Source of the DNA: Sipunculus nudus
Taxonomy: Eukaryota; Annelida; Sipuncula; Golfingiida; Sipunculidae
DNA: 64,000 nucleotides
Direction of reading: 5' to 3'
Assembly: GCA_026874595.1 (NCBI GenBank)
Contig: CM049308.1
Coordinates: 49,152,124 to 49,216,123 of the forward strand
The position numbers and the translations under genes were made by a program. Shown piece by piece: positions 22,931-55,958 of the stretch (the first letter of the stretch is position 1; each line of letters begins with the position of its first letter). Below the pieces are notes generated by a model. It searched no databases. It saw nothing but the letters and a program-made list of their open reading frames with translations, and was not told the DNA's origin.

Positions 22931-22931
22931 T

Positions 22932-24156: not shown

Positions 24157-24159
24157 TTT

Positions 24160-28960: not shown

Positions 28961-28974
28961 TTTCATACGCTGTC

Positions 28975-29460
28975 TAGGACATGACGTATTATGGTATACC
29001 CACTGTCCATCCATTAATTTTCAGTGTTGCCACAATAACTTACTGGGCCTTGGTTAGATTTTCACAAAACTCACTATAATTATTAACCAAAACATTATCT
29101 CACCTGAATTCAAATATGGGCAAAATCCTCACATATTTAATGAGGTCAGAGTTTACCTTGCTTCTTTGTGGTGTCAATCCAATAACTTTCCAGAAGTATG
29201 ATAGCTTTTGATGAAACTCTACAAAAATATTATATAATATGATATCTCACTAAGTTTGATTCCTGGCAAAACCATGCAAAGTAAATGAGGTCAGAGGCAC
29301 CACACTTTAGGGGCAGCTGTAATGACTTAACAAATATCTGATGGATTTTCAAGAAACTCTTAGTAAATATTTATCAATCAATTTTTCACCAGATTAAATT
29401 CTCAACAAAATCCATGCATATGTAATGAGGTCATAGGTCACAAGACCTACAACAGCATTT
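28975..29460 (+). repeat. degenerate repeats of about 140-170 bp
   Basis: Three diverged units share a 'TTTCAAGAAACTC'-like phrase, TAATGAGGTCAGAG and a TATTTATCA-like phrase. They resemble core repeats of a HINE family, but no matched ends were found. Confidence 0.5.
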
Positions 29461-29490
29461 TTGCACCCTGGTGGTGTTTGTTGCCTGAAT

Positions 29491-30222
29491 GTAGGACGTT
29501 TGGACACGGACGGTCCGAACAAGGACGGTCGGGACGAGGACGTTTCGGATAGGCTTTTTTGCAAGGGAGGACGTTTAGGACAGATCAATATTATTGAGAG
29601 GTAGTCACCATAACATATAAATTAAAGATTTGGATAATGAATACTGCTTATGTGAACAGAACTTTCCATGAAATTGATTAAAACACCATGTCAGAACTTA
29701 TTAACCTTTTATGGTGATTTTCAGGGAATGAGCAAAAATATTGGTTTCAAGGTGTTGATAATTCTAATGTGCTTATGTTGAATAATGAAAACTATGTGAA
29801 ATCACAGATTGAGCAATAATATTTGTTTTTCATTCTATATTTTGTATATATTTATAAAAGTGCATGATTATTAATTCAATTTTGTATATATTAATATAAG
29901 TACTTGAATATTGTATTTTTGTAGTTGTCATAGTTTTATTAAACAAAATGTTCTCCTGTCACTGGTTCACTCTATTCTGTTTAATACTGTATCTTTTTTT
30001 TTTACAAATAACATAAAAAGAACCCTCTATTAATCCCCATATTTTGGAGGCAAATGAATATTAAATCATTAAACATATTGGTACATTTAGACACTAAAAA
30101 TTATAACAACAAAAGGTCATTTTTTTGCAGTATTATTGATCTGTCCAAAAAGTCCTCCTTGGCAAAAAAGCCTGTCCAAAACGTCCTAGTCCAGACCATC
30201 CACGTCCGAAACATCTGTCCAC
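29491..30222. mobile_element. foldback element with about 100-bp inverted arms
   Basis: Left arm 29,491-29,598 and right arm 30,131-30,222 are imperfect inverted repeats. At their inner ends the left arm reads GGACAGATCAATATTATTGA and the right arm TATTATTGATCTGTCC; both also share AGGCTTTTTTGC / GCAAAAAAGCCT. The arms contain short tandem GGACGTTTCGGA / GGACGGTCCG units. The 530-bp centre is AT-rich and non-coding. This is the architecture of foldback or long-TIR MITE elements; no target duplication could be fixed. Confidence 0.75.
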
Positions 30223-30385
30223 CTTTGTTGCCACTTAGGGGTGGGGGTCCCCTGTGTCATAATCTAACTTTCGACAGATTGATTTAAATTTCAAAGTGAA
30301 ATTCAAATAGAGAAATTTCAGTGGCTCATCTGGGGAATACCTTCAATTCTTTATAGAATTCCATAAACATTGTCTTGTTTTTATT

Positions 30386-32804
30386 AGCTCAGCTGACTTT
30401 CAGTCATGCTGGGCTATAGCGATGGGTCTTTGTCTGTCGTCTGTCCGGCCGGCCGCCCGGCCGTAAGCAGGGCACAAATCTTAACCGTAGGGGCTAGGGC
30501 CATGAACCCTATGCAGTCTTAGAGGTTATAAAAAGATCTCCTTGCAAACCTGAAATTAGGTCACTGCGACCTATATTCTCGAAGTTATGGGGTGTGTTTG
30601 CACCCCCCAGAAATAACTCTTTGAGACAAAATTTTCATCCCACACTTTCCATCTTTCACATACAGCTCACCCACCAACAGGGGAAGAACCATAATTTTTT
30701 TAGGTCAAAAGGTCAAAGGTCAAGGTCACAGGAGCCTCTTCTTTGAAAAGCCTGTGGATGCATTTTTAGCCAAACCTTTCATCCCAATTCTTTGATCTTT
30801 CACATATAGCTCACCTACTAAGTTGGAGAAGAATCCTATAGATTTTGAGGTCACAAGGTCAAAGGTCAGGGTCACAGGATCCACTTCTTTGAAAAGGTTG
30901 TGGACACATTTCAAGCTAGACTTTTCATTCCAAACCTTCCAGCACTGATATCGCTTCTCTGCCAACAGGGGAAAAGACCTGTTGATTTTGAGGTCAAAGG
31001 TCAAGTTCACAGCACCCACTTCTTGCGTGGAGTCTTTTTCAGGCAAACTTTTCAATCTGTACCTTCCATCTGTCATATATGGCTTACCTACCAATAAAGG
31101 AAGAAGCCTATTGATGTTGAGGTCAAAAGTCAAAGGTCAAGGTCACAATATTTAATTGTTCTAAATGCTTGTGAGCATATTTCAAGTGTAACTGTTCAAC
31201 CCAAACCTTCAGTCTTTCACATATGCCACATCTATGCATCACTCAGTTTGACGCAAACTTCATATTTATGGGTCTTTTTGCTTGAATAAATAACTTATTG
31301 ATTTTGGGGTCAGCTGGTCAGCAGGTTAAAGGTTGCAGGTCAAAGTTATTCACCCATTGGTTGCCAAGTAATTACACCAGATTTAAGTGGTTAGTAGTTA
31401 CCCATCATTTAGAAAGAATCCAGTTGATATATGGGCAAAAGGCCAAGGTCATAGGTCAGGGATGTTCACAATTACCTATTTTATAGACCATCTCTATTTT
31501 TCTTGTATATATTACCATCCCACTCCAGCTGGTACATCTCCCTGTGTGGCTGTAATTGTGAGTGACACTGGTGACATATGACTCCCTTTTGTATCAGCCT
31601 ATTAAGTGATAAGGCTCAGTGATAAGTACCTCCTTACTTCATAACAAAAACACTGTTGTCAGAATGCTTCAGCCAGGCATTAAGACTATGAGAGTATAGT
31701 ATTAAGGTTTAGCTACTGATTTATAATATGATGGGAACATTTTGCAGTTTATTTTATGGAATCCTAGCAATAAACTTAGTTTCCTAGATATCTGAATATT
31801 TTAATATATATCACCACATATAAAAGCAAGTGTTTGTTCTCATAATATGTGGATGTGTACCTTGATTTAGGATGGCTTTTTGTTTTATTTCAAGACTCTT
31901 AGTCATGCTTTCTGCATTTCTTTTCTTTCAGGTTTGGCAGTTTACCTACCCTGCTGACCCAATTGAAAAGCAGAGTGATAATAAAAAATATTGGACTTAC
32001 ACTTTTTACAATTGCATATCTATAAATCTGATATGAGGGCCTGGACATGCCTTTTGAATTATTTTGGGCATCCATTACTGGATAATTTGCCCCAAGTTTG
32101 GTCTCTTATTGGAGAATGTGGGATATCAAATGTCATACTTGTCAGAAATCCATTATATCTGCCAGTTAGCCACCTTAGAAATTCTTTCTTCAGTGCAGTT
32201 TCAGTAATTTTTCTTTAATGTTTGGTCCGATTTAGAGAATGTTTGTTGTCTGATTTCAGACTTGTCAGAAGTCCAATATGGACACCAGGCAACCATCTTT
32301 TAATTCCTTTTGATCATTTTATCTCAAGAACAGTTAAAGTGAATGCAGTTGGATGTATATTTATGTAATCTTGTAAAGGATTGGGTCAAATATTTCTGAA
32401 TAAATATTACCATCATTTATAAAAGTGCAGTACAGTTGGCTTGTATTGAATAAAAATTCACACAGAAGCACCTGTTTCTCAATAATTCTTGCATGTATTT
32501 CCTTGATTTTTGCTATATATTTTGATCTTATATTTGCCCTTTGTGGTGTTCCTTTTGAGACTGACAGGTTTCAAGCAAGCTGTTGGAATAGTTCCTGATA
32601 GCTTAACAATCATGCATTTTCCTCAGACCATCAATTCACTGTGTTTTAACCAGACATAGGTGAGATATATTTCTGTTGTCAAAGAAAATTTTCAACAAAT
32701 TGGCAAATTGGTTCTTCAAAATTTGACTGGAAGTTGTGAATCTCAGTCCATGATGTCACAGGTCATGCTTGGCAGCTGAGCGTCATGACCCATGGGTCAC
32801 TTGT
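30386..32804 (+). mobile_element. HINE, AGCTCAGCTGACT family, copy 1
   Basis: The 5' hairpin AGCTCAGCTGACT...GCTGGGCT is at 30,386-30,415, followed by a GTCTGTCGTCTGTCC simple zone. The 3' end has CAGCTGAGC (inverse of the 5' end), the hairpin GACCCATGGGTC (32,787-32,798) and a terminal CTTGT (32,800-32,804). Core repeats of about 125 bp at 30,630-31,470 carry repeated AGGTCA half-sites; a second type at 32,100-32,310 has GACTTGTCAGAAGTCC. It matches 59,678-61,913 in both ends but differs in the core. Confidence 0.85.
30702..30728 (+). promoter_or_regulatory. AGGTCA direct-repeat cluster (DR2, DR1, DR0)
   Basis: Four AGGTCA half-sites lie in a row at 30,702, 30,710, 30,717 and 30,723 with spacers of 2, 1 and 0 bases. 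AGGTCA direct repeats are the known sites of nuclear receptors (RXR partners, HNF4). Similar clusters recur in the core repeats near 30,849, 30,990 and 31,121. Function is inference. Confidence 0.45.
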
Positions 32805-34400
32805 TATTTTTCTTGCCAGTGTTAATTCAGATGTCAAAATATTGATATATTTCTGCTTGGAGTAAACTAGTTATACAGCTGTGTTTTACACCCCTTTCTG
32901 TGTAAACTAGAAGCTTCTTGTTCCAGTTACAGCTTTGAAAGGAAATTAGAGTAAAACTGAAGAAACATGGATCGGGATGATGCACATTCATTAATGGTGC
33001 TGCCTAATGTAATGAGAAATTTTATTTATGTGTGACAGTAGGATTATTTGGCGTCCCTCAGACATGGCAACATGAGATTTTGTTGCTACCTTTCAAAACA
33101 TAACAGACTCCTGACAGAAAATCAATACCTAGCACTGAGTAGACCAGGCAGTGCTGGGCCTAGAGCTGACACAACTGTAGTCCAGAATGGATATAAATAT
33201 GAATGTTGGGACAAAAAATCTTTTTTCTTAAAGTGCAGTTGAAATAAGTCTGAAAATCCAAATCATTTAAATAGGTTTTTCATTTGGCAAAAAGCAGGTT
33301 TTTAATTTTTTCACGCTTTAAATTCTGGCTTCAAAATATGATAGGTTTTAGATGACATTCTGAATCCATTTTTTTCTATTTTCCAGGGCTTATACCTGTT
33401 AAAATCAGTGTTTTCTGTAGAACTTGGAGTTTCCAACCCATATGTTAGCGTTTTGAGATGACTACGTTCTACAGTCTGGCATATTAATATGGCATCACTG
33501 TTTTTGAATGTTAAATCTACACCTGCATTCCATCTTATTTTCTTTGAATTTGTGAAATGTCCAACAAATTCTTTCAGTCAGAATAAAAAAAAAAATACCA
33601 AAAATTAAAGTTAAAACTCACTTTTGAAGTTTCATTAAATATAGTGGATAATTGGTTTCAACAATATTTATATCAACAATATGAATAGCCATATTATCTA
33701 TGTGAGTGTGGAGTAATATCATTTTGTATATCTGTCATGCTGTTTGTATATTATCAGGGCATAACATGTTACCTTATAGTTTAAGACAAGAAGGTCTAAC
33801 TTGTGAAGTCTCTTTGGAAAGTGGACTTTATGTGAAGCTGACTCATAATATACTCACAAAATAGATAATTGCATTAAATCTGAAGATCATTTAGTTTATG
33901 TATCTCATATACACTGATAACCATGTCCATATGAAGCCGTATCATGCAGCACCATATCCCTGAGAGTATGCAGATCACTTACAACCAAGCACTTTATCAA
34001 ACAAAAAATAAAATCTCTTGACATTAACTGGATAAAAGCTCTGTTTAGCTCTGATGACTGAGAATCAGGGCACAATTTAATCATAAATGCTTAATCTAGT
34101 GTTGGGAATCAGTTGTAAATTTATAATGGATCACCAGTAAAAATCAGTTGACGTGTACTAAGTGATAATCAGAATTTATCTGTTGTCTAGAAGTGTGAAA
34201 TTTCTTAACATATGTAGACCTGTGCATCATCTGAACTGAAATCTAGGCCTACATGTTGGCTAATATTGTAATGATTCTGTTGTGTTTTTGTGTGCCAAGG
34301 CAGTAACTGAAGGTATGAAGTTATCAGTAAACACACACTTCTCCAGAGTTTGCTCATCACAAAGTGTACTGGTAATTCAGTTATTACCATATTTAATAAT
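32805..34400. other. unique sequence, no supported gene
   Basis: A + frame at 33,048-33,242 has a stretch of protein-like composition (ENQYLALSRPGSAGPRADTT) but no clear acceptor/donor pair. Otherwise AT-rich and featureless. Confidence 0.35.
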
Positions 34401-34402
34401 TG

Positions 34403-35476
34403 TATCCCCAGACAAAGTCGAGATACTATAGTTTAGACATGGTCACACCACCTCCACCACTGCCGCCACCACAGAGATTTCTTTCAGGCAAGATAACTAA
34501 GAAAATATTTCCAAATCTTTACAAAACTTGACTTGTGCATAGATACATATGGATGAGAGGACTAAGCCTATTTAAAATTTGGTCATGACCGATACTAGAA
34601 GAGTGACCATAACTTTGAAAAGGTCCATTTTAGGTGAAATTCACACAAATTCTTAAAAGTCTTAAGAATTATTGCATGGATTGATCCAAAAATCAAGTTG
34701 ACCAAAGATTGGTGATAGTGTTGTGATGTACCAGAAAAGGATTGGCTCTATCTGTTATCCTTTTCTTCTTTTCGTGCCATTTTGGAATGATGAATATTAA
34801 AGTGGGGGTCATGACCTTTCCTATGAGAGTGACCTTTACCTTGACTAATGCCATATGTGGTGAAAATTACACAAAATCATAAATATCTCAATGGAGGATG
34901 TATTGATTGGTCCAAAAACCAACAGCAAAAAAACTGACTGAAGGTCCTGGATAGCTTTGTCTTCTGCAGAAGACAGGTGGCACCACCTTCTGTCCTTTTT
35001 CTTGTTTTCGCGCCTTCTAATACCCATAATTGCCACTTGACAGTCCTGTGAGTATTATAACTCAAAAACTGATGGACAGATAGGGCTAAAAGTATGCATG
35101 GCTTAATCATGGATACCATCATCTTGTTATCAAGACTGGTAGTGCCATCTGCAATTGTTTTTGTTTTGCGTCCATTGATACATTAATTTGCTTTAGGCGA
35201 AATTGCTCATATCTCAGGAGTTGTTCAATGTATTGGTCTGATATTTGGCATGTACATCCATCCTGGAGAGTTTTCTTTTGAAGCTGACAGGTGGTGCCTT
35301 CTACCTAACTGTTTTCATAGTATTAATTAATGCCCTGTTCCCAGGAAAGATTGGCTGCTTTGGCCTGAAATTAAGCTTGTCCATAGATCTTGGATACCTC
35401 CAAGGAAGATGGGTTCCTATTCTTAAAGGGTGGGGAGATTAATAGTCTGGGGATAAGTGCAAGAAAACATCTAGTT
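34403..35476 (+). mobile_element. HINE, TATCCCCAGAC family
   Basis: The 5' end TATCCCCAGAC (34,403-34,413) is matched by its exact inverse GTCTGGGGATA at 35,445-35,455, and the element closes ACATCTAGTT (35,467-35,476), the same last bases as the 54.6-kb element. The core contains units with CATATCTCAGGAG, TGGTCTGATATTTGGCATG and GACAGGTGGTGCC, shared with the 11.7, 48.9 and 58.6-kb copies. Confidence 0.82.
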
Positions 35477-35479
35477 GAT

Positions 35480-36176
35480 TATTGCACTGCAAGATCCATG
35501 ATCAGATTTTGCACCAACTGACTCATCATTGATTATAATCAAGCATCATAAGTTAGATCTATTAAGTTGAAAGCTGACATCTTTAAAAATGTTTCAGGCT
35601 TTCCCTGAAATAAAGTCATAGTGACCTTAATTGTGTAAGACACACATGTAAACATGCTAAAAAGCATCTTTTAATTCAGAAATGTTTACATCCAACTGTT
35701 CTTGACAATAGACAAATTTTCTGTCCTCTCAAAGTATACAGTACATCCTACAATCGACTAAAAAAAAAACAGTCTAAGAATTGATATGTTACATCATACT
35801 GGTAGTGATAATGTAGATACATGATTTAGGGGTCTGCTAAAATGTTTATGAGATCAAACTGGTACCTCCTGAAAACAGGAGGGTCTCTTGTTTGTTCAAA
35901 AATTTTAAATATGTTTTTTGTAACAAAAGGGGAATTTTTCATTAACCTTATCGGTGCCTGCTCCAGTCCGTCATTATGGATTAAACAAATGTTGCTCAAT
36001 ATTTTAGACAAGTGTGTATTCACAACAGGATTTGTGGCAGATGACTTCTATCTTGAGTGTAAGAATGAACGTATTCCATTTTTTGTATTTAAAGTTTTAG
36101 GACAAATGTAACATTTAAATGCTCTACAGAAATGTGGTCCTGTTATGAACCTTTCAACAATAATCAGTCCTCATGT
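35480..36176. other. unique sequence with a possible decayed frame
   Basis: An 89-codon + frame (35,842-36,111) and a 65-codon minus frame (35,826-36,023) overlap. A perfect hairpin CCTCCTGAAAACAGGAGG lies at about 35,866-35,883. Nothing decides whether any of this is coding. Confidence 0.3.
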
Positions 36177-37785
36177 CGTTCATTATCACTAGCCATTCAA
36201 ATATCCCTTGGCCTGTTCATCCCAGTGTTAGTCTCCGATACAGACACACGCTAGTGCTACCTCAGCTATGTGTTAATCATCACTAGCCATTCATATCTTT
36301 TGGCCTGTTCACCCGTGTTAGTCTCCAATACAGACACATGCTGGCGCAACCTCAGCTATGTGTTCATCATCACTAGCCATTCAAATATCCCTTGGCCTGT
36401 TCACCCCAGTGTTAGTCCCCAATACGACACACGCTGGCGCTTCCTCAGCTTTGTGTTCATCATCACTAGCTATTCAAATATCTCTTGGCCTGTTTACCCC
36501 AGTGTTAGTCTCCAATACAGACACATGCTGGTGCTACCTCAGCTATGTGTTCATTATCACTAGCCATTCAAATATCTCTTGGCCTGTTCAACCCAGTGTA
36601 AGTCTCCAATACAGACACATGCTGGTGCTACCTCAGCTATGTGTTCATCATCACTAGCCATTCAAATATCTCTTGGCCTGTTTAACCCAGTGTAAGTCTC
36701 CAATACAGACACATGCTGGTGCTACCTCAGCTATGTGTTCATCATCACTAGCCATTCAAATATCTCTTGGCCTGTTCAACCCAGTGTAAGTCTCCAATAC
36801 AGATACACGCTGGCGCTTCCTTTGCTTTGTGTTCATCATCACTAGCCATTCAAATATCTCTTGGCCTGTTCACCCCAGTGTTAGTCTCCAAAACAGACAC
36901 ATGCTGGCGCTACCTCAGCTATGTGTTCATCATCACTAGCCATTCAAATATCTCTTGGCCTGTTCACCCCAGTGTTAGTCCCCAATACAGACACACGCTG
37001 GCGCTTCCTCAGCTTTGTGTTCATCATCACTAGCCATTCAAATATCTCTTGGCCTGTTCAACCCAGTGTAAGTCTCCAATACAGACACATGCTGGTGCTA
37101 CCTCAGCTATGTGTTCATCATCACTAGCCATTCAAATATCCCTTGGCCTGTTCACCCCAGTGTTAGTCTCCAATACAGACACATGCTGGTGCTACCTCAG
37201 CTATGTGTTCATCATCACTAGCCATTCAAATATCTCTTGGCCTGTTCACCCCAGTGTTAGTCTCCAATACGACACACGCTGGCGCTTCCTCAGCTTTGTG
37301 TTCATCATCACTAGCCATTCAAATATCTCTTGGCCTGTTCACCCCAGTGTTAGTCTCCAATACAGACACATGCTGGTGCTACCTCAGCTATGTGTTCATC
37401 ATCACTAGCCATTCAAATATCTCTTGGCCTGTTCACCCCAGTGTTAGTCTCCAATACAGACACATGCTGGTGCTACCTTAGCTATGTGTTCATCATCACT
37501 AGCCATTCAAATATCTCTTGGCCTGTTCAACCCAGTGTAAGTCTCCAATACAGACACATGCTGGTGCTACCTCAGCTATGTGTTCATCATCAATAGCAAT
37601 TCAAATATCCCTTGGCCTGTTCACCCCAGTGTTAGTCTCCAATACAGACACATGCTGGCACTACCTCAGCTATGTGCTCATCATCACTAGCCAGTTAAAT
37701 ATTTCTTGGCCTGTTCACGTCAGTGTTAGTGTCCAATACAGACACACACTGGCGCTAACACAGCTGTGTATTCACTTTTTTCGGT
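36177..37785. repeat. 94-bp satellite array, about 17 copies
   Basis: A head-to-tail array with a 94-bp unit (phrases ATCACTAGCCATTCAAATAT, CTTGGCCTGTTCACCCCAGT, GCTACCTCAGCTATGTGTTC). Units fall into sub-variants (CACC/CAACC; CATGCTGGTGC/CACGCTGGCGC) that alternate in blocks. Because 94 is not a multiple of three, the reading frame shifts each unit, giving a ladder of overlapping false frames. Confidence 0.97.
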
Positions 37786-38520
37786 AGCAATTTTTCATTG
37801 AACCAACTAAATATGGAACATTATGAGTATATCCTGTTAAAGATTCATTTTCAATGGGACTGAATGTCTCATGTTTGGCACACATACCCTTCATATGGTA
37901 GGGGTCACATTAACCAATACAATTCTATATTAAGAGCCATATGCACATGCATGTATTTTTTTCATGGTTTAAATTAATTACTGCCAGTCTTATGCCCGGG
38001 GGGGAGGGGGGGGGGGGGTGAGAAAAAACTGCCAGGCTCCACCCTCATTGGGCACATCCCTGCAAATGGAAATTAGCTTGAACCAAGTGCAATGAATAGC
38101 TCAAAACATAAACCGACATAGCGCACATGCCATGTCTAACACTGTGCAACTTCACAAATCCAGATTTCCCAAGCTTTGAACTGGTGTTTCTTCTTTTCTT
38201 ATTGATTGTGAGTTGTTGTACATGTGCAGGGTCAGACCTCTTGTCACACACTTGCTATGGTTAAGAGACACGTGAACTGTGTTTACTCATTTAAATACAG
38301 AACTATTACAACATGAACTAATACTGTGAGATAATTTGAATATCAATGGTATTGAAAATGTTATTGTGTGTTCAAAAAGTCCTTGTTGAATGTCATGGTT
38401 CATGCTTCACAAACATTATACTTGGTGGACAGGCAGTGTACATAGAGAACATATATTTGTCAAACAAACTGTTCTTGTCAGGCGAGTCTTTAAGAAAGGT
38501 GTAAAGCCCGCGGTAAATTT
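37786..38520. other. unique sequence with a poly(G) tract
   Basis: A G-rich run with a single A lies at about 37,998-38,018. No gene is seen. Confidence 0.5.
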
Positions 38521-38572
38521 TATTGGGTTTTGCTCAAGCTAGTGAACATATGTGATTGGAAACTGGGTAACC

Positions 38573-38603
38573 ATGGCACAGAGTGGAGAGGCGAATATTA
38601 AAG
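38573..38603 (+). CDS. candidate short first coding exon
   Basis: ATG in a good context (ACCATGG) opens MAQSGEANIK plus one base and ends at a strong donor (TTAAAG|GTATGTT, GT at 38,604), phase 1. A GC-richer stretch (GCCCGCGG) and two ATTGG (inverted CCAAT) boxes lie within 65 bases upstream; no clear TATA box. Phase and length resemble the first exons at 13,905 and 57,154, so it could be an alternative start of the same gene or a separate gene. Short, so chance is possible. Confidence 0.4.
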
Positions 38604-38609
38604 GTATGT

Positions 38610-40160
38610 TGATTGATATTCAGTTGTGAGGTAATCAACAAAATTTAATTAGTTCAGATTTATCCAGCCAAACCAAAGGTTTTTTTAAATATGTAGAAAT
38701 GTTAGTATGAGACTGACTTCTTTCAAAGCCACAGTAAAATTTTAATGAAATTTTACTAGTTTGATTATAATATAACATTTCCCTTAAAGAAAAATAGTTT
38801 AATAATAAGACACAGCATATCATTTTGATTTCAGATGGAGCCTTCATAAATGAATGCAGACATCATGTAGCACACGTCATAGCTGGCTTTGTATTTCTTA
38901 AAATAAAACACTGCACTGTCAGGAATTGGCAAGCAACCACTGATGTGTGACATGTATGATTTTCTTGTTTATATGTGGACATATTGAAAAAAAAGGAAAT
39001 GTTTCCCAAATATGTTTCAATACCTGATATAAATGTAAGATGTTTCATGGTTGATGAACATGAGCACACCTGGGAATGAAACTCTTTGGTGTACTAACAC
39101 CTAGCTGGAAAGTATTCTGTTTTATGATACGTGTTAAGACTCTGAGGGAAGTTCCTTGTTGTTGAGTGTCATGGTTTATTCACTTTCACTTAATGTACAT
39201 GCGCTGAGCTTTATAGGACACACCAGCTGATGAATACAGTAAAACCTGGATATTATGACCACTAAAGGGACCTTGATAAAATGTGCACATTACTGAGGTG
39301 GTCATCTGAGGATTGATTAGCAAGGGTCTTAAAGCAACCTGTCTAGCTTACTTTGTAAACTTGAAGTGCTCGGTGATGATGTTAACCTATATAGTCAGGC
39401 ATGACTGATTAAGTTTTCCACCTAACTTAACTTGATAAGGCTGGAAATTAAGATAAAGAATTTTATTTTATTTTATTAATACTGAAAAAATAGTAAAAAA
39501 ATCATCTGAAAAAGTTATAAATTCTTATCCAGGCACATCTCAACAATATTTCAATATGTAAATTTCATGCTTGTCTGATATTTACTCTTGGTATATCCTA
39601 AACATTGACCACAGATGAATTCATGAATACAGATGCAGTATTAAACAGATCCATTCTAAATAACCACAACATGAAACATCCATGATTAAGTCTATTTTCT
39701 CAAAGAATTGTCCATGCAAAGTTCAGACTTTGACATTTGGCATGCACAGCCTGCTACAGTACCCACTATAAGAGGTAACAAGTATCTGTCCCTAATTAAT
39801 CTAAATGTAAAATTAAATCTGTCTATAGAAGTTTGTGATCAATTTGATATGATCAAGAATCTCCCTTGGTTCTATTGTACATGGCTGAGTTAATAAAGGC
39901 ATATTTTATAGTTTCTTTCCTCGTGCAGTAATAGTTTCTAAACAGTTGGCCAAACAAGGAGTTAAATATGTACCAGCCATCAATCTTTATATTGACTGTG
40001 AGTTCACAAAGCTAAGGGCTAAAGCAAAGCACATATTATTAATGGAAAGTCTAATAAACAGTTATAAAAACCATGATGGGACATTCCTGGCCCAGTCTGA
40101 TCATATGTGAACATGCTCTGACCTGTGCCCTGTACTTGTTTCATCTGCAATTATCCCTAC
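38610..40160. other. unique DNA with one short repeat fragment
   Basis: At 39,235-39,320 a stretch reads TTATGACCACTAAAGGGACC and GAGGTGGTCATCTGAGGATTG, resembling a widespread interspersed repeat of marine invertebrates (from memory, unchecked). The remainder is AT-rich without features. Confidence 0.4.
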
Positions 40161-40164
40161 ACTC

Positions 40165-40640
40165 GTAATTTTGTTCTTTACCATAAATAAATACTCTGAT
40201 GATATTGTTCTTTACCATAGGAGAATACTCTGATGATATTGTTCTTTACCATAGGAGAATACTCTGATGATATTGTTCTTTACCATAGGAGAATACTCTG
40301 ATGATATTGTTCTTTACTATAAGAGAATACTTCAATGATATTGTTCTTTACCATAAGAGAATACTTCAATGATAATGTTCTTTACCATAAGAGCATACAC
40401 TGATGATATTGTTCTTTACCATAAGAGAATACTCTGATGATATTTTCTTAACCATATGAGAATACTCCTATGATATTGTTCTTTACCATAAGAGAATACT
40501 CCAATGATATTGTTCTTTACCATAAGAGCTCCAATGATATTGTTCTTTGTCATAAAAGAATACTCTGATGATATTGTTCTTTATCATAAAAGAATACTCT
40601 GATGATATTGTTCTGTATCACAAGAGAATACTCTGTTATT
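40165..40640. repeat. 34-bp minisatellite
   Basis: About 14 units of 34 bp (phrase GATATTGTTCTTTACCATAA plus GAGAATACTCT), most diverged at the right edge. Confidence 0.95.
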
Positions 40641-41155
40641 TCTCTTCACTAATACTTGCTACACATCTATTTGACACAGGGGTGTAACAATGCACTGAAG
40701 AATAGATGCAGGCCCTCCATTATTGTATGATTAAATTCTGAATCAATTAATTGCAATTTTTATTTAATGGCATTCACCAAAAAATCCTCTATGAGCTTTC
40801 AACTTTGCAGAGCATTTTGCGATGTTGAAGCTCTTTATCATGCATGTGCCCTAAATCTACTATAGAGTTTCCTGTTGGACCATTTCACTTGCATAGAAAC
40901 ATAAATGGGAATGATAAACAGAGGGAAAGCTATATTTTCCTTTTATTTGTTCAATTTACTAACATCCATTTTGGTAAATTTGCTTTTATTTTTCAAACTG
41001 TGAAATATATCCTTAAGAAAGAATTGAATCAAGAATTGACTTGAAGGAAAAGAATTGATAATTGAATCGAGTCTAATGCTCTCACAATCCACACACCTAT
41101 TGTACACCTGTCTATCTTTGATTGAGCACTCAGCCTTCATGGTCAAGTTAAAGAT
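40641..41155. other. spacer between two minisatellites
   Basis: Unique AT-rich sequence with no supported feature. Confidence 0.4.
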
Positions 41156-41160
41156 TCTGA

Positions 41161-41692
41161 GGGAACACAGACTGTCCTGTATTTAACCAGCAGTTAACAC
41201 AGACTGTCCTGTATTTAACCAGCAGTTAACACAGACTGTCCTGTATGTAACCAGCAGTTAACACAGACTGTCCTGTATGTAACCAGCAGTAAACACAGAC
41301 TGTCCTGTATTTAACTAGCAGTTAACACAGATTGTCTTGTATGTAACCAGCAGTTAACACAGACTGTCCTGTATTTAACCAGCAGTTAACACAGATTGTC
41401 TTGTATGTACCAGCAGTTAACACAGACTGTCCTGTATTTAACCAGCAGTTAACACATACTGTCCTGTATTTTACCAGCTGTTAGCACAGACTGTCCTGTA
41501 TTTTACCAGCAGTTAACACATACCGTCTTGTATTTCACCAGCAGTTAACAGACTGTCCTGTATTTTACTAGCTGTTAACACAGACTGTCCTGTATTTTAC
41601 CAGTTGTTAACACAGACTGTCCTGTATTTTACCAGAAGTTAACACAGACTGTCCTGTATTTTACCAGCTGTTAGCACTGTCTGTCAGTAGAA
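41161..41692. repeat. 32-bp minisatellite
   Basis: About 16 units of 32 bp (phrases ACAGACTGTCCTGTATTT and ACCAGCAGTTAAC), with TTTAACC units on the left and TTTTACC units on the right. Confidence 0.95.
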
Positions 41693-42029
41693 GTTTTGCC
41701 AGAGCCATAAACATATCGGTTATCTTGAAGAAAAGTGGGTTATTCAACTAGAAAATGCAATATCAGATCTAGTTGAAAGACATGTAATTGATCTGCGGTG
41801 AAAATTCTGCATAATTGATCATTTTTACACACTGGATAAAGTTCTGCTATTACTTAAGAGACCACAATGTTAAATTTGTCATGGGGAATAAATGGGAACC
41901 CCACAAAGCCATCAACTGTTTATACATCTGATGAATACTCAGTGACTAAATGGGTAAGGTTTACTTTTTATCAGTTAACATGGCTTATGAGGTTAGGTGT
42001 TCTTGGTTAATAATGTGGTATTAGCATAA
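41693..42029. other. unique spacer
   Basis: Nothing recognised between the minisatellite and the transposon end. Confidence 0.4.
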
Positions 42030-42421
42030 GGGCACTTTCACACTAAAGGTTGGATATGAAAAATTGTTAAACAATGGTTCACAGGTAAGTTTTGTGGCTG
42101 AAAATATGATACATATTATCATATTTGTAAAGGCCACACCAGCCTCTATAAACACAGAAAATTTTATAACTCTAAGCCAATTTTTTAAGAAGTTCTGGCC
42201 ATTTAAGTGTAATTTTCATCAAATTTTGGAGTCTCACTCACAAAAATGGGAAAATTTAATGTAAATATGACTGAAATTTGTTTACCAGAACAGAAATATT
42301 CTAATCACAGCACATGCTGTAACATGTAAACTACAAGTGCTCTAAGTTTCATGACTTTCATAGTGGTGGTTAAAATTATCCAATCAATATCCTTCAGTAT
42401 AATAATTGGTTAAAATATTTT

Positions 42422-44097
42422 GCTGGGACCTGTCCTCTCCAGTACATTGCATCCTCACAAGAAATGTAATTCTCATGTTGCAAAACAAAATCCTGCTTTA
42501 AACAGCCAGTATTATATCTAATCATGCTTTGGTAACTAAGGGCTGGGTATGTGTGTCCTGACCGGGATGATTTGGCACTTGTTTACATGGTATATGCCTG
42601 TTAAAAAAATTGTCCTCTCCAGTACATACAGATAAAATTCACTTTAATGTAGAAATTAAAAGCCTATTTTAGTTTATATGTAACAGGTAGCTAGGAAGAT
42701 AAATTCCCTGGTGTTTGCATTGCATACCATCTAATATTCTGTGGCCAGTTTAGCAATGAGTGTATCTGTTAAAATGTCCTCTCCAGTACAATCATTTTTA
42801 ACATGAGGCAGGCTAGAGGAATACTTCTCCAAGTAAGCTTAATATTTACTTCAAGTTTGTCCTAGTGATAAATATAAATAGACTGACTGGTTTAGGGAAG
42901 TAGTTTGGCTCATTATATATATAAATTAGCATGTAACTCCATTCATTGTCATACCAATATTTAGAGTGATGAATCTTCATTGATGAATTCATGATAAAGC
43001 CTTTCTTTTACATGTACCTTCTTTGCACAGAAGTGAAAAGCAGACAAAAAGCATACCTGCAATAACTGCATGTAAATTGTGACAGTAGCAGACTTTAATT
43101 TTGTGTTACTTAAATGTACTGGAGAGGACATTTTTTTAACACAGGATAAAAGTGTCAAATGTACAACCCTACAGTCTTTCAGATTTGCACGGTAGTTCTT
43201 GAAGCTTTCAATCACTGTGGATACCTAACCTGCTTACTTTTAATTTTAATAAATACCATGCAGTTTACTACATAGACCCCTTCATCTAATTCTTTGGGTA
43301 TTATAAAAAATGTGTAATTGTATCTGTTCTTAACTAGAACCACATACATGTTAAGATTCCTTACCAAATTAGACCAGTAGAAATAGTCAAACAGCCCGAA
43401 TTTTCATTTTTACCAAAATCTAACATTTCATTATCTGGATCATTAACTCTCTTCATGTCTCATATTTTATGTAACTGTGTCATATTGATGATTGCTAACG
43501 AATCAACCCAAATTGTTTTGGCCAAAGATAATTCTTATGAAAATACCAGTGCTTTCTGTTCCCTTGCCATCTCACCAGCTATGAATCATTACTTCATGAG
43601 AGCAACTACAGTCAAATTTGCCAATACTTTGCCTCAAGAAAAAGTCAACAACTTGTGAAACCAAAGAGTTTGGTAAAACAGCTTTTGAAACTGTGGTCTC
43701 CCAAATTGCTGGTACACATTTTAAATGACACAGTTATCAGTGTTGGGGCTGGGGGTGGTTAGGGTGAAGGCATCATGTGAACTTGGTCTTTGACAACGTG
43801 CTTTTATTTTCCCATCCATTTTACCAAGTCTCATAGCAAAGTCTATGAAAACAATGATATCAACATTGTCTTCTTGCAAAAGCTTAATTTTCTGGTTCCA
43901 GTTTATCTCAGTCTCAGAAAAGTTGTTTTTATATTTTAAATTCAACTTTAACGGTAAAATCCTCACAAGTAAAAAGTCAAAAGCAACTGAAATGTTCATT
44001 TCGACAACTGTTGTGTAACAATGTAAAATACTACTAGCAGGACCCATATCTGTAGTTATCAAATGATACGAAAATGTATGTCTCAAATTTTGAATAA

Positions 44098-44149
<52 letters not shown>

Positions 44150-44727
44150 ATATTTTCCCCAGGTCTACAATAAACATTTTGTTTATATTACATTCAGGTG
44201 AGCTATGTTGTCTATGAACCAATTGTTTAATGTATGTTGTAAAATAAGTTGATAGATGTTGATATTCAAAGTAAATGTGTTGGAAATAAAGCATGAGTGC
44301 AAAAAAACAAATTATATTTGCATTACGGATTGTGAACAAAACTGCTTCTGAATAAAATTCTGTGAAATATTTCATTTTCAAGATGACCATTTCTCCAAAT
44401 TATTGTTAAAAATATATTTTTTTTCAACAAAACAAAAGGTACAAGCCATTCAATATTTATAATCTCGCTTTAAGTGTCATTTAATATCATGAAGTCATAA
44501 TTGACTTACATTATACTTAATAACTGATACTTTGGTATGTCTATTTTGTGCTCCTTTAACCACAAGGTCCAAATAGTTGCAGATGAACTTGCCTCTGGAA
44601 AATGAGGTGGACTCTGATTCACTTTATGTTCAAGAGGTCCATGAACAATACAAGAGAGAGAGGGAACAAAAATATTCCTTTTGAATTCTTCCACAGTGCA
44701 TGTTAAAATAATGTCCTCTCCAGTACA
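42422..44727. repeat. dispersed 16-bp motif TGTCCTCTCCAGTACA, five copies
   Basis: Exact copies lie near 42,433, 42,613, 42,775 and 44,712 on the + strand and at about 43,117 on the minus strand. In four of the five the motif is preceded by TGTTAAAA and 0-6 A/T bases, giving a conserved block of about 27 bp; in the first a GTTAAAA lies about 17 bases upstream. The rest of the flanks do not match. Confidence 0.85.
44100..44148. repeat. (TA)n microsatellite
   Basis: A pure TA run of about 48 bp inside the DNA transposon. Confidence 0.96.
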
Positions 44728-45274
44728 AATGTTGATAAAAACCGTTATCCTATAAATCAAGTGACCACAGACTAAGGCATGAACATATTTCCTGATTTCT
44801 TGAACTCTGTACAGCTGAACAACTTCTCTCACCATTTCTGTTATAAATTGACCAGAGTAGTGTCAGAATAAAGACTGAGAGCATACTTCCTTTAATCATA
44901 ATTAAAATGCATTGTTAAATTTTTATAAAAATATGAAAATTGCATAAAACAAACAAATGTGATTGCAGATTTTTTTACCATGCACTTAGGGCATGATCAA
45001 ATACATCAGATAAAGACATTAGAACAAACCAATGAGCGAAAATTTAAATTATGTAGAGCTGTGAAGAGAAAAAGATTATTGTAAAAATATGGGATGTTTG
45101 AATTTCTGAATTCAATGTAACTTTTATTAGTTCACAGGTAAAATGGTATACTAAACAGTTTCCTTTAGCTAAGATATATACCTTTTCAGGGGTAACCTTA
45201 ATATTGCTCTGTTAGGTATTCAGTTTTTACTCCCCAGTGAGACTAATCACTCAACCTTTTGTGTGAAAGTGCCC

Positions 45275-48200
45275 ATATATATTGGGTATTGCCTTTATGA
45301 TCAGAGTGAAATAATGAATGCATGAGGAGACTGCAGTGACAAAGAGAGTCTGTCAGGCATGGGCTGATGGAGCTTGCAACACGCAACAATGGATGATTGT
45401 TTCATTAAGGGACATGGATCTTTGATCAAGTCATCAGGCAGCTTGTCATTAACAGATCTTCAGAATGACTTTTAATTAACCTTGATGATTCATTTCATCT
45501 CAACCATTTTTTTTCATGTTGTTGAATTAAAGAGGGACCAGCAAGTAAATAAATTCTTCATGGATGTCTGAAAGAGTAGTGTACCAATTTTACAAAGTGT
45601 GTGCCTTCAGTTAAACCAAGCAATCAACAAATATTCCCAGTAGCATCATAGCGGGGCAGTGGCAGTCTTCTTGGTTGAATAATTTTTTTTTTCAATAAAA
45701 AGCTTCTGTGATTTCAAAGAATTCAAAATAAGTGTACTAGTGAATATTATACAAGCAGGTTGTAGATCATGGCTTTCATTAAGGGACTTAAAGTCTTCAG
45801 TTAATTCAAACAGATGGTGCTAAAATGTTCTTGGTGCTCATGAGGTTTTAAAAATTTGGATGAAGAACTTGCAAGAGTTCAACAAACATTCAATTATAAA
45901 CTTTTCAGGAAAAACACAAAACTGTCTTTGGAGAGAGTTTGGTGGCAAGGGTACGTGTAGCAGACTGATGTGTTTTTTTTTACACTCCCAAATCCTCAAA
46001 ATATACAAGGATACAGGGTTGCTGATGTATCAGATCTACAAACACAAGAACGATGGAGACCATACTTTAGAGGAACCATCATTTGTAGGATGTCCTTTCC
46101 CACCAAGATAAGAGAGTTGAATATTCTTGTCATCCAGTGTGAGCTTATGTAACCCAGTGTTCTGCCTTAGGCCGGGCTGTCTGCTACAGCAGGAGAACCA
46201 GAAATGAATCTTAATCCACCAGGACAGTAGCTGATAGAACTGTGTCAATTGGTCCATTCCATGGGTCAAGCTGCTGTTGTGGAGTGTTGCTCTGGTACTA
46301 TATTTAGCTGCTTCTTCAGCTGACCTTGAATACACATCATTACAATGTCCAAGCACAGTCGCTCAGGTCACTATTTGTGGTTGTGTTTTTATTGAGAATT
46401 GGACGAAACTGTGCACTATATATGAGTATATAGTAGTGTGCCATATATACTTGGTACAGAGACAGCATGTATCACTATAGAGGTATATTATGCACTTTTT
46501 CTTCCCATTTCCCCCTGAAATAGGGCTTCAAGTGACTGTAGTCTAAGTGTGAGCCCTCAGCTACAAAGATGGTCTATCATATCCTGCCATATGTGGTGCA
46601 TTCTGACTCAACCTTGTCCATCTTGTATGGTTCTATCGCATCTGATGTTTTTATCTTCCAGTTGTAGCCTGTTGGTAAGATGGTCAACCTGACACTCAGC
46701 AAATCTCGTCTCTCTCACAGCATCAGAAATTTTTAAGCATGACCTCCAGGACCTCTAGAATCTACAGCTTTCATCTTTTTTTCCCACCAGTTTTCTTACT
46801 ACTAAACCCATGTAAATTGGTGATTTTAATCTACAGTTTATTGTATCATCAGGCTGAGAAGTCGAAAGGGGGGGGGATAATATGACTAATGGTTAATATG
46901 TCTGCTTTTTTTTACAATGTCTCTTTACAATGTTAGTCTACTGTTTTCTGACGTTTCATGATAGACTAGCTGTGATGTTTGTATTCTTGGGATACCAGCT
47001 CCTATAACTAGTTTCTCACTGGATTGAACAAAAAACTTCGCGTCTTTGATCTTTATGATGAGAGCATTTTGTTGTGCACCCTTCAGGAGGGGAGCTCCCT
47101 CTCAAAGCCCTGGGTTTGTGTGTGGTGTCGTTACCTGTACAACCACTGTCAGAGAAACACCAGGGGAGTAGAATGGGATCACGGTCAATTCATGTTTTTG
47201 CCAGGTGTTGTTGAACATAAAAGGCTTGGTTTCTTGACTCATATCTTCCATGTCATTTTAGAGTCACAAGTAAACAGGGGTTTTACCTTTGCTGTTTTGC
47301 AATCCCTGGTGTTTTTTTATCTGTGTTATTTTGTGACCTCTTGTGTTTTGTGACTTGTGATGCAAATTTTTGTGACCCGTAGTACTTAGTGAATCTTTAT
47401 GATTTGAGATGTGTTAGTTTGTGATATGTGTGGCTTTGTTACCTGTGTTGTTTTGGATGTACCGTAAAATCTGTGAAATTCCGTACCTCGATGAATTTCG
47501 TACACGACCTTCAGTATCCATAATTATGTTAAATTTCGAACTGCCGATGCTCTGTTACGTCGTATTTGACGTTAGCAGGGTTGCCGTGATTGTAACACTG
47601 ACGTTACCCCACCCTATCACCTGGTTTTGAACAAGCCTACTGGTCCAATCGATGTGAATGCCTGCTGTTGATAATTAATTTGAATTCTATCTACGTCATA
47701 TGGAATGTAATTTGATTAAAAACTTAGTTTTTTTCAGTGACAATAAAAAAAAAAATCATGAATGTTGCTTTATCGTCCGGGATTCGAGCGACACGCCGTG
47801 AATTACTGGCAGACGTCCATGAAGTTTAATTGAGGTTGGAGGTTGGACATGGGATATTCTAATTTCAGGATTGATTGACTCCATAAGTGGTCTATAGAGA
47901 CCTAGCCAATGTGTATGCAATGCCAATGTTAATCAATTTGAAAATTAATGCTAATTTCTGTTAAAAAACTTGAATAAATATCTTGAATGCGAGTTATTTT
48001 ATTTAACCTACCTCGAACTGCACCATAAAACAGGAAAACTTTTTTAGACTTCCTCAGATATCAAACTAACATTCTTTGTGCTCAATTTAACCCAAGTGTA
48101 CCCTTCGCATGCAAAACGACGGCGCTTAACCGCGTATTTGCGATAACCTATTCATAGCTTTGCCATCAGATGTCAGGCCTCCGTGCCATGATTTGCTTCA
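45275..48200. other. unique sequence, no supported gene
   Basis: Several 60-109 codon frames occur (46,036-46,356 minus; 47,024-47,353 plus), none with a matched acceptor and donor. A degenerate TTTGTGACCTGTG-type simple repeat lies at about 47,300-47,460. GC content rises from 47,500 toward the promoter at 48.2 kb. Confidence 0.4.
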
Positions 48201-48221
48201 ACCCCCGGTATTATGATGATA

Positions 48222-48254
48222 TATAAAGACCGCCGTAAGAATGTTTGGTCAGTC
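48222..48254 (+). promoter_or_regulatory. TATA box plus initiator
   Basis: TATAAA at 48,222-48,227 lies in a locally GC-rich patch, and an initiator TCAGTC at 48,249-48,254 puts its central A 29 bases after the first T of the TATA box, the ideal spacing for animal core promoters. No coding first exon with a good donor is seen downstream, so any transcript would begin with untranslated sequence. Confidence 0.45.
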
Positions 48255-48329
48255 GGCAGAGGTCGGGGTCTGTTGTTGTTATCTGTGTCATTTCCTGTGA
48301 AGGCAATAATTTTTTGAACAGCTGAAACT

Positions 48330-48900
48330 TGACATTTTTGTGCTTACTACAAGTATCTAAGGGAAGTCAGAAAATCAGTAACCTTGACTTTCATTTTCAT
48401 GGTCAACTTAAAATTTTGTTTGGGCCCCATAACTATTCAAGGATTGTTTATTTGTTCCTAAAATCTGACGTGCATGTTGGTTCAACCAAGTGCTTTGAAG
48501 AGTTTAAAAGCTGATGACCTTTGCCTGGATCTTCAAGGTTTAATGTACGAAACTTTTGCTCATTGTTTCTTGGATTTCTTGTAAATGTGATGGTGTATAT
48601 TTACCCCAAGTTTGACACAAATTGTTTTAACCAAGTTCTCGAATCAGTTTGAAAACTGGTGACGACCATGAACTTCATGGTGAAATCAGCCAAAATCAGA
48701 ATTGTTTTTAATTTGATAACTTTTAAACCACTCAATATTTTAAAAATAAAATTTTATATTTTGTTGATAGCAAAATCTCAGATAAAAATGGGTGACCTTG
48801 ACCTTCAAACAAAACCTTGGACGAGTTTGAGTCTGGTGGCCTTGATGTTTTTCTCAGTAAAATTTGCAGAAATCTTAGATTGTTATGGACCCCATAAATT
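48330..48900 (+). mobile_element. HINE core repeats (TATGTCTC family), fragment
   Basis: About three units share GGTGACCTTGACCTTCA, CATGGTGAAATCAGCCA and ATGGACCCCATAA with the element at 22,932-24,156. No ends are visible. Confidence 0.65.
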
Positions 48901-48948
48901 TTGAAGTACTGCATATTACTTTCTCCATTTTGATACACCAATTAATTG

Positions 48949-50375
48949 TATCCGCCAAAACAGAGTTTTGCGGATAATATGTTTTCAGCCCACCGCCGCC
49001 GCCGCCGCCGCCGCGTAGGTGTCAGGAGAACTCCTCCTTAACCGCTGGGCGGAATTTTACGAAACCCGGGATTATGTTCGGGTCATATGTGAACTGCTGC
49101 GCCCCGATTTTGTTTTGACCTCTGACCTTTCCTCTGCACTCTGCATCCGTTTGTGCGTCTGTTTCCACACATAAACCCACATATCTCGGGAACCGTTTGA
49201 CCGATCAGGAAAATATTTTTGCACAAATGTAGCCCTTGGAGAGCTTTATAACATACAAAAAAATGGTGGCGCCACCTGCAACCATGTTTGCACAGTGTCC
49301 ATCTGTTTGTCTGCCTTGGGTTGAAATCACTCATATCTCTGCAGTGGTTTGACTAATTCACCTGAAATTCGGCATGCGTATATATCCTGGATAGCTTTTC
49401 TGTTTTTATGACAGGTGGCGCCACCTACTTTCACGTTTTCACTGCAGTCATCCAAGCTCATATCTTGGGGACAGTTTGACCGATTGGGCCAAAATTTTGC
49501 ATGTGTATAGATCTCACATTGCTCTTTATCATACGAAAAACTGGTGGCGCCACCTGCAGCCATTTTTGCACAGCTCCCGTCTATTTGTCTGCCATTGGTA
49601 AAAATCACTCATATCTCGGCAGTGGTTTGACATATCTGTCTAAAATTTTGCAGATTAATACATCCCCGACATCTCTCTTGATTTTATGACAGGTGGCGCC
49701 ACCTACTTTCACGTTTTCACTGCAGTCATCCAAGCTCATATCTTGGGGACAGTTTGACCGATTGGGCCAAAATTTTGCATGTGTATAGATCTCACATTGC
49801 TCTTTATCATACGAAAAACTGGTGGCGCCACCTGCAGCCATTTTTGCACAGCTCCCATCTATTTGTCTGCCATGGGTTAAAATCACTCATATCTCGGCAG
49901 TGGTTTGACATATCTGTCTAAAATTTTGCAGATTAATACATCCCCGACATCTCTCTTGATTTTATGACAGGTGGTGCCACCTACATTCTAGTTTATGCAG
50001 CAGACATCCAAGCTCATATCTCGGGAACCGTTTGACCGATTGGGCCACAGTTTTGCATGTGTATAGTTCTCACATAGCTCTTTATCATACACAAAACTGG
50101 TGGCGCCACCTGCAACCATTTTTGCACAGCGTCCATCTGTTTGTCTGCCAAGGGCTAAAATCACTCATATACATGTAGTGGTTTGACTTGTCTGCATTAA
50201 ATTTTGCATATGTATACATCTTGGACGGCTTTCTGGATTTTGTGGTAGGTGGCGCAACCTACATACACAATTTGGATGCAGACATCCATGCTAATATGCA
50301 ACACTTCCCTCTATTTCCCCTTGCCACTCAATCCATGCCTCACTTTACCCGTTCCACTCTGATTTGAGTCGCTTG
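48949..50375 (+). mobile_element. HINE with TATCCGCC hairpin and GGTGGCGCC core repeats
   Basis: The 5' hairpin has arms TATCCGCCAAAAC (48,949-48,961) and GTTTTGCGGATA (48,965-48,976), followed by a (CCG)n simple zone (48,989-49,015). Core repeats of about 270 bp follow; two adjacent units (about 49,400-49,660 and 49,680-49,950) are nearly identical. Each carries GGTGGCGCCACCT twice, ATCTCGGCAGTGGTTTGAC and AAATTTTGCATGTGTATAG. It closes near GAGTCGCTTGT (about 50,367-50,377). Confidence 0.82.
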
Positions 50376-54580: not shown

Positions 54581-55958
54581 ATGCCCCCGCCACAAAGTGG
54601 CCGGGGCATATAGTTTTACCCATGTCCGTCATTCCGTCATTCCGTCCTTCCGTCCTTCCGTCATTCCGAAATGAAACAGTTGTACGGACTTTTTTTCGCA
54701 ATGCCTGCAGATATTGGCCTGATTTTTGGTGTGTGGGCAGATATAGACCAGTTACAGATCGAGTTCGCGTTTCGTCCCGGTTGACCTACTTTTGACCGTT
54801 TTACGGCTCCTGCACTTAGAAAATTTCATGAAAAATAGAAATATTCATGACAGATACACATGTACGGACTTTTTTTCGCAATGCCTGCAGATATTGGCCT
54901 GATTTTTGGTGTGTAAGCAGATATAGACCAGTTACAGATGGAGTTCGCGTTTCGTCCTGGTTGACCTACTTTTGACCGTTTTACGGCTCCTAAACTTAGA
55001 AATTTTCATGAAAAATATAAATATTCATGACAGACACACATGTACGGACTTTTTTTCGCAATGCCTGCAGATATTGGCCTAATTTTTGGTGTGTGGGCAG
55101 ATATAGACCAGTTACAGATCGAGTTCGCGTTTTGTCCCGATTGACTCACTTTTGACTGTTTTACGGCTCCTGAACATAGAAAATTTCATGAAAAATATGA
55201 AATTTCATGACAAATACACATGTACAGACGTTTTTTCGCAATGCCTGCAGATATTGGCCTGATTTTTGGTGTGTCGGCAGATATTGACCAGTTACAGATG
55301 GAGTTCTTGTTTTGTCCCAGTTGACCTATTTTTGACCGTTTGACGGTGCTCTAACATAGAAAATTTCATAAAAAAGGTGCACATGTATGGACTTTTTTCG
55401 CATTACCTGCAGATATGGCCTGATTTTTGGTGTGTAGGCAGATAATGACCAGTTACAGATCGAGTTCTTGTTTTGTCTCGGTTGACCTACTTTTGACCAT
55501 TTGACTGCTCCTGAACATAGAAAGTTTCATGAAAAATATAAATTTTCATAACAAATGCATATGTACTGACTTTTTTTCCTCAATGCCTGCAGATACCACC
55601 CTGATTTTTTTTTTTGTGTGGGCAGATAATGACAGTTACAGATCGAGTTTGCGTTTCATCCTGGTTGACCTACTTTTGATTGTTTAACGGATCCTAAACA
55701 TAGAAAATTTCATGAAAGACAGAAATTTTTATGGAAAATGCACATGTATGGACTTTTTTTCACAATGCCTGCATATACTGGCATGATTTTTGGTGTGTTG
55801 CTTGATAATGACCCATTACAGATCGAGTTTGCATTTTGCCCTTGTTGACCTACTTTTGACCATACGACACCTCCTGAACTTAAAAAATTTTCCAAATTTT
55901 ACAAATGTTTCTAATTTGCCCAAGGCGGGGGCATTCGTGTCGTTCCGACACATCTAGT
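54581..55958 (+). mobile_element. pearl/Helentron-type element with seven 180-bp core repeats
   Basis: The 5' hairpin has arms ATGCCCCCGCCAC (54,581-54,593) and GTGGCCGGGGCAT (54,597-54,609). A microsatellite of CCGTCATT/CCGTCCTT units follows (about 54,625-54,668). Then come about seven tandem core units of 163-184 bp (starts near 54,683, 54,862, 55,042, 55,222, 55,385, 55,562, 55,745), each with CAATGCCTGCAGATATTGGC, GATTTTTGGTGTGT and GGTTGACCTACTTTTGACC. The 3' end has the inverse of the 5' end, GGCGGGGGCAT (55,924-55,934), the hairpin GTGTCG-TTC-CGACAC (55,937-55,951) and CTAG then T (55,954-55,958). Helitrons typically end in a hairpin followed by CTRR. No coding capacity. Confidence 0.9.

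Follow-up and report, generated by a model that had tools for sequence, protein, structure and literature searches.

What is a 3.2-kb piece of DNA whose two ends mirror one another almost letter for letter, and does it hold the gene for its own movement? The piece lies in the genome of Sipunculus nudus, within a stretch of 64,000 nucleotides (GenBank assembly GCA_026874595.1, contig CM049308.1, positions 49,152,124 to 49,216,123 of the forward strand) that we call, at its full length, the window. An initial annotation, made from the letters alone, read the piece as a DNA transposon with near-perfect terminal inverted repeats (TIRs), perhaps a highly decayed autonomous one with a coding core. 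We argue that this reading of the structure, made from raw sequence, was right and that the core has to be given up: with a probability that we put at about 0.9, the element is one copy of a family of non-autonomous cut-and-paste DNA transposons.

Why should one more such family matter? Non-autonomous DNA transposons are common, and this family is otherwise ordinary biology. It is well defined, with exact boundaries, a 4-bp target-site duplication, a palindromic target and fairly recent activity in a large genome, and it gives a natural opportunity to test whether internal words that mutate unusually seldom are, in a non-coding element, the sites that a transposase requires.

Ends, copies and target sites

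The two TIRs agree at 22 of 23 bases across 3.2 kb, and both are present where the initial annotation had placed them. The termini of the element are GG..CC, and among the copies examined, a T/A mismatch at position 15 tells the left TIR from the right. A repeat finder stretches the inverted match to 25 of 27 bases, because the target duplication just outside is itself AT-rich and nearly palindromic. A 12-bp direct repeat, GTTCACAGGTAA, also lies near both ends (42077-42088 and 45130-45141) and could be chance.

Can chance make such a pair of ends? The initial annotation had said that it will not, and for shuffled sequence, the claim stands. We asked for inverted pairs of 23 bases that agree at 21 or more, have a G+C count of at least 8 and lie no more than 8 kb apart. 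When the window was shuffled locally 30 times with its dinucleotides preserved, 29 shuffles held no such pair and one held a single pair. In the actual window, qualifying pairs occur in 12 groups of places. Three of the groups are the element's own, from its ends and internal words; four come from the tandem array near 26 kb; the remaining five lie elsewhere and match at 21 of 23. In a window so rich in repeats, an inverted pair alone is not decisive; the copies in the genome decide. Within the window, there is no further copy of the TIR at up to 5 mismatches and no empty site, the flanks of the element, taken separately and joined, matching nothing but themselves.

The host genome searched comprises 1,426,538,692 bases in 153 contigs. 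With the element as query, 128 candidates were found and 40 of them were scored, so the copy counts are lower bounds. There are at least 34 whole-element alignments at 94-100% identity, the window copy included (33 spanning positions 1-3245 of the element and one spanning 6-3245), and they are spread over 16 large contigs. With up to 2 mismatches allowed, the TIR pattern is found at 173 sites genome-wide (85 forward and 88 reverse), against none for its reversed control. The same pattern has no match in viral_contigs or in genome_contigs (bacteria and archaea), and fragments of the ends and of an internal word discussed below, sought as letter strings in those portions of the literature that could be searched, occur nowhere save for a single 13-mer, which turns up in an unrelated paper on the mouse.

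We looked closely at 40 copies, namely the 39 best-scoring genome places and the window copy. Both TIRs are present at up to 2 mismatches in 37 of them; the other three are L012, which has a damaged left end, L042, whose stretch contains no right end, and L044, whose stretch stops before the other end. An exact 4-bp target duplication flanks 34 of the 37 two-ended copies (ATAT 16 times, TTAT 4, ATAA 3, CTAT 2 and nine others once each), whereas random re-pairing of the flanks over 2000 rounds gives 8.9 on average and never more than 16. The three copies without an exact duplication are the window copy (ATAA/ATAT), L041 (ACAT/ATAT) and L047 (GACC/CAAA). The duplicated bases are 96% A+T, as against 67% in the flanks, and the consensus of the target is palindromic, T-R-T-ATAT-A-Y-A. 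The whole-length copies, the 173 TIR sites against none and the 34 duplications in 37 thus make this a genuine DNA transposon family, with the traits of cut-and-paste (class II) elements: TIRs common to the copies and a target duplication of fixed length. The initial annotation had proposed a search for genomic copies and had feared that the ends might occur without the interior or that no copy would share both boundaries. Many copies do share both, each boundary at the same breakpoint, and neither fear came true.

How old is the family? In an alignment of 33 near-full-length copies (L034 and L042-L047 are omitted for their length or a missing end, and L012 is kept despite its damaged left end), the copies differ from their majority by 1.2-3.5%, with a mean of 1.9%, and from one another by 0.4-5.5%, with a mean of 3.4%. 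Because the copies were chosen by score, older ones are under-sampled. These values point to a fairly young family that was active fairly recently, and "highly decayed" is not the description that they call for. The five closest pairs (0.4-0.8%) have flanks that are dissimilar over about 400 bp on each side; they therefore look like separate insertions and not like duplicated segments. Five copies, L035 and L038-L041, lie further out, at 3.1-3.5% from the majority; four of these lack an exact reverse-strand copy of the 16-bp word described below, and the five may be an older subfamily.

The bases themselves carry a further trace of history. The observed/expected ratio of CpG is 0.14 in the element, similar to that of its flanks, and across the 33 copies, the rate of departure from the majority is 15% at CpG sites and about 2% elsewhere, which fits the expectation for methylated DNA. 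In the founder, only about 15 dinucleotide columns are CpG-like (observed/expected about 0.18), so the founder was probably CpG-poor before it spread, as though it had spent a long time in methylated DNA or had drawn its interior from there. The window as a whole is a CpG mosaic, with ratios of 0.07-0.31 at 16-46 kb (0.53 at 22-24 kb) and of 0.5-1.06 at 1-14 kb and 48-58 kb, much as mosaic germline methylation in an invertebrate would lead one to expect.

How, then, would such an element move? A transposase made elsewhere would bind the TIRs and might bind the internal words as well; it would excise the element and join it to a staggered, AT-rich target, and the filling of the gaps would yield the 4-bp duplication.

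Reading frames and internal words

Open frames are present, two on the minus strand and one on the plus strand (Table 1), and they make a poor case for a gene. The majority sequence of the 33 copies holds no frame longer than 120 codons. A constrained gene is expected to gather its substitutions in excess at the third codon position. Here, the counts for positions 1, 2 and 3 are 77/50/54 in the 118-codon frame, 75/77/80 in the 120-codon majority frame that overlaps 43338-43655 and 58/48/43 in the third frame tested; that is, they are even in one frame and highest at position 1 in two, and any excess at position 3 is at most a few counts. Stops or frameshifts break these three frames in 14, 14 and 9 of the 33 copies, respectively.

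Comparisons with known proteins say the same. Six read-through frames have no Pfam match up to an E value of 5 and no NCBIfam match up to 1. Taken singly, two frames match Pfam weakly and below the curated cut-offs: the 118-codon frame scores 14.2 bits where 27 are required (E 0.032), and the 106-codon frame scores 13 bits where 22 are required (E 0.093). We take both to be chance. Against solved structures, the best E value of any frame is 0.15; the 118-codon frame as a FliM or Pol protein (E 0.15-1.6) is likewise put down to chance. Two of the three longest frames, one of them without its microsatellite, have no relatives in viral_contigs. The DDE/D transposase by which an autonomous transposon is known thus finds neither a family match nor a majority frame of more than 120 codons to stand on. 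The aligned copies show no sign of coding, and the element from which they descend probably had no long frame either. A match of the TA microsatellite to mir-1277 (E 0.0054; 30.7 bits, where the gathering score is 81) was discarded.

If the element does not encode its transposase, might a longer relative do so? The 30 TIR sites that came with loci all open into the same interior. Three longer pairs of ends were looked into. The 4.8-kb pair on contig C4 agrees with the family at the two points probed, and what lies between these points is unrelated. The 4.7-kb pair on C6 was probed only in its middle, which resembles repeats elsewhere and has no family match. The 4.5-kb pair on C2 encloses a copy of the family into which about 1.2 kb has been inserted, and the inserted DNA is similar to repeats in other places. 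A shorter pair, 1.2 kb apart at G000:C8:59264013-59265219, is possibly an internally deleted derivative.

The interior is not featureless. One 16-bp word occurs five times in identical form, four times forward and once in reverse, and in four of the five places, it is preceded by TGTTAAAA and 0-4 further bases. Their starts lie 402-1086 bp in from the left end, and about 550 bp separate the last word from the right end. No other copy of the word lies in the window at up to 3 mismatches; in loci L009-L081, family DNA holds 245 occurrences of it, with overlapping loci recounted, and the 78,773 bases outside hold none; and an 18-mer that contains it has no match in viral_contigs.

Across the 33 aligned copies, the five words together have taken 18 substitutions, where about 50 would be expected from their context, and only 0.7% of 5000 random draws of five windows are as low. 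Their variable sites number 10 of 80, against 20.7 expected, and 0.5% of the draws have as few. By word, from copy 1 to copy 5, the substitutions are 2, 0, 2, 5 and 9. As a set, the words are about as quiet as the right TIR (0.68% and 0.66%), the TIRs themselves having 5 substitutions on the right and 9 on the left, against 14 expected for each. The most likely reading of the words, we think, is that they are candidate protein sites tied to mobility, be the protein the transposase itself or a helper from the host. Two other readings were tried and rejected. The words at 43115 and 44712, an inverted pair that matches at 26 of 27 bases, might have bounded a nested 1.6-kb element, which we reject because three more copies of the word are left unpaired and because the same layout is found in the family majority. 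Kinship of the word with the minisatellite at 41164-41685 fails because 37% of shuffles score equally well.

Table 1. The element and its parts, in positions of the window
Feature	Position	Strand	Remarks
Whole element, non-autonomous DNA transposon (probable)	42030..45274	+	3245 bp; inverted ends and genome copies
Left TIR	42030..42052	+	23 bp; pattern recurs in the genome
Right TIR	45252..45274	-	23 bp; 22/23 identical to left TIR
Left target-site duplication copy	42026..42029		ATAA; 3/4 against the right-hand ATAT
Right target-site duplication copy	45275..45278		ATAT
16-bp word, copy 1	42431..42446	+	no TGTTAAAA block; intact in 31/33 aligned copies
16-bp word, copy 2	42611..42626	+	intact in 33/33
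16-bp word, copy 3	42775..42790	+	intact in 31/33
16-bp word, copy 4	43115..43130	-	intact in 28/33; one variant common to 4
16-bp word, copy 5	44712..44727	+	intact in 23/33; one variant common to 5
106-codon open frame	43338..43655	+	judged not coding; overlapped by the 120-codon majority frame
147-codon open frame	43724..44164	-	about 16 codons are TA microsatellite; no equally long frame there in the family majority
118-codon open frame	44509..44862	-	judged not coding
(TA)n microsatellite	44101..44147		47 bp; extends two open frames

Weighing the readings

Not everything favors a non-autonomous family whose ends and words serve its movement, and the points that weigh against it should be set out together. 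The window copy, from which all of this began, is itself among the three of 37 without an exact duplication. Among the end sites that were read, about half of the 173, there is no transposase and no autonomous partner. The strict AWWT target of the Sola2 elements, with which we provisionally file the family, accounts for only 17 of the 34 exact duplications (ATAT 16 times and ATTT once), the rest being mostly TTAT, ATAA and CTAT. The frames of the element, once the microsatellite has been removed, are longer than those in its dinucleotide shuffles: the longest, of 139 codons, is reached in 1.2% of 500 shuffles, and the sum of the five longest, 539 codons, is reached in none. As for the words, copy 1 lacks the TGTTAAAA block; copy 5, with 9 substitutions in 527 cells (1.7%), changes at about the background rate of 1.9%, so the low-mutation signal comes from copies 1-4 (9 in 2112); the cells of the alignment share ancestry, some changes in the words being a single variant common to several copies; and the words were selected for being exact in one copy.

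The frame lengths make the best case for a decayed autonomous transposon, one whose transposase gene would still be traceable in its open frames. The rest of the window lends that case something. Among 60 overlapping masked stretches, with a median frame sum of 437.5, the three top sums (590-632) overlap the element and are an artefact of the excision of the microsatellite, and those rows were left out; outside the element, only one sum exceeds 539 (575, at 58501), and the next is 526. On the other side stand the youth of the copies, a majority sequence whose frames end at 120 codons, the even or first-position pattern of substitutions, the stops and frameshifts in up to 14 of 33 copies and frames that find no family when read through and only weak or chance matches when taken singly. 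Because we weigh the alignment of the family above the lengths of the frames, we reject the coding core of the initial annotation, and we consider a decayed autonomous element very unlikely. Still further from belief is the idea that the ends are a chance pairing of unrelated sequences, or the outward ends of two separate elements that happen to face each other. The five other pairs at 21 of 23 that lie outside the tandem arrays might invite it, and the whole-length copies, which carry both ends and duplications of their own, refute it; we give it practically no weight.

What the words are for is a more delicate question. That they bind a host protein, or are a by-product of how the founder was assembled, and are not sites for the transposase, we regard as a coin toss. 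Subterminal sites in well-studied transposons lie nearer the ends than do these words, and copy 5 mutates like its surroundings, both of which favor such a reading. The confinement of the words to the family in the sequence examined, together with a quietness about equal to that of the right TIR, argues for transposase-binding sites. So does precedent: in other transposons, too, series of transposase sites lie inside the ends, where they may be needed or inhibitory (PMC11707139; here and below, we cite papers from excerpts). A bolder possibility is that this is a large non-coding transposon with an internal site array of its own, on whose interior as well as ends the transposase would assemble, from a group not yet linked to ends of this kind; that assembly would be the reason why the 16-bp words have been kept, hundreds of bases away from either end. 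We think it improbable.

The rest of the window adds some observations in their own right. Inverted-repeat arms at 7884-8353 and 14439-14982, 73-79% identical and about 6.1 kb apart, are possibly another, older element. Very regular tandem arrays at 26851-28537 and 36173-37774, with units of 36, 72 and 94 bp and 92-98% matches, create long spurious frames; arrays with longer units lie at 49252-50297 (278 bp), 54681-55890 (180 bp) and 59832-60844 (326 bp), the first of which yields repeated 93-codon frames. A Pfam scan of 15000-24750, 28560-36200, 37700-42029 and 45275-49200 gave only matches under the curated cut-offs, the best at E values of 0.0056 (Vps27_GAT-like, near 21250) and 0.0067.

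Kinship with known transposons

To which superfamily does the missing transposase belong? We put it at about even odds that it is of the Sola superfamily and Sola2-like, and the filing is provisional because no transposase was found: there is no Sola2-type DDD transposase in the element and no partner with one among the end sites read, in searches made with no Sola profile. What recommends Sola2 is the AT-rich duplication of 4 bp, in 34 of 37 copies and 96% A+T. Published descriptions, in the parts available to us, give Sola2 elements ends of 12-13 bp with AWWT targets in Dictyostelium fasciculatum and ends of 21 bp with ATAT, AAAT and ATTT in Polysphondylium (PMC3627910); Sola elements generally make 4-bp duplications, have ends of 11-1124 bp and mostly measure 2-9 kb (PMC10741241), and both Sola1 and Sola2 have been reported in bivalve molluscs (PMC10294476). 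For comparisons of this sort, Repbase's rule asks for duplications of equal length and for an alignment of terminal positions 1-11 with no more than one mismatch (PMC4455052).

A shade less than an even chance goes to some other superfamily with short duplications (PIF/Harbinger-ISL2EU, Ginger or a relative of MuDR) or to an undescribed one. Half of the exact duplications misfit AWWT, and no transposase was found that could decide. Duplications of a suitable length are not rare, being 0-4 bp in PHIS, 4-10 bp in IS256/MuDR, 4 bp in Ginger1 and 4 or 5 bp in Ginger2, according to excerpts of PMC10045372. Against a home outside Sola2 stand the TGT with which the ends of Ginger elements begin and the likeness of an ATAT-centered, AT-rich 4-bp duplication with short ends to the description of Sola2, and several candidates fall by their own rules. 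Both piggyBac and Kolobok need TTAA, which occurs once in the 34 exact duplications of this family; piggyBac also needs CC..GG termini, where this element has GG..CC; and IS481EU requires TG..CA ends (PMC10045372).

It is perhaps fairest to describe the family by what it resembles and where it departs. With Sola2, it shares short inverted ends and 4-bp duplications that are rich in A+T and most often ATAT (PMC3627910); it differs in being an element without any protein, so that the likeness is one of ends and duplication only. With Kolobok, it shares purine-purine/pyrimidine-pyrimidine termini (GG..CC) and a duplication of 4 bp (PMC9587614), but Kolobok duplicates TTAA, and KolobokP has long terminal direct repeats, whereas this element has none, its longest direct repeat being 23 nt. 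With piggyBat and other transposons that have extra inner transposase sites, it would share more than one binding site per end if its words are such sites; theirs lie within roughly the last 160 bp, and the putative ones here lie at least 400 bp inside (PMC11707139, in part). Last, the element is much like a miniature inverted-repeat transposable element (MITE), being non-coding, AT-rich, bounded by inverted ends and, as we read it, moved in trans; MITEs are described, in the part of PMC5199201 cited here, as shorter than 800 bp, and this one runs to 3.2 kb.

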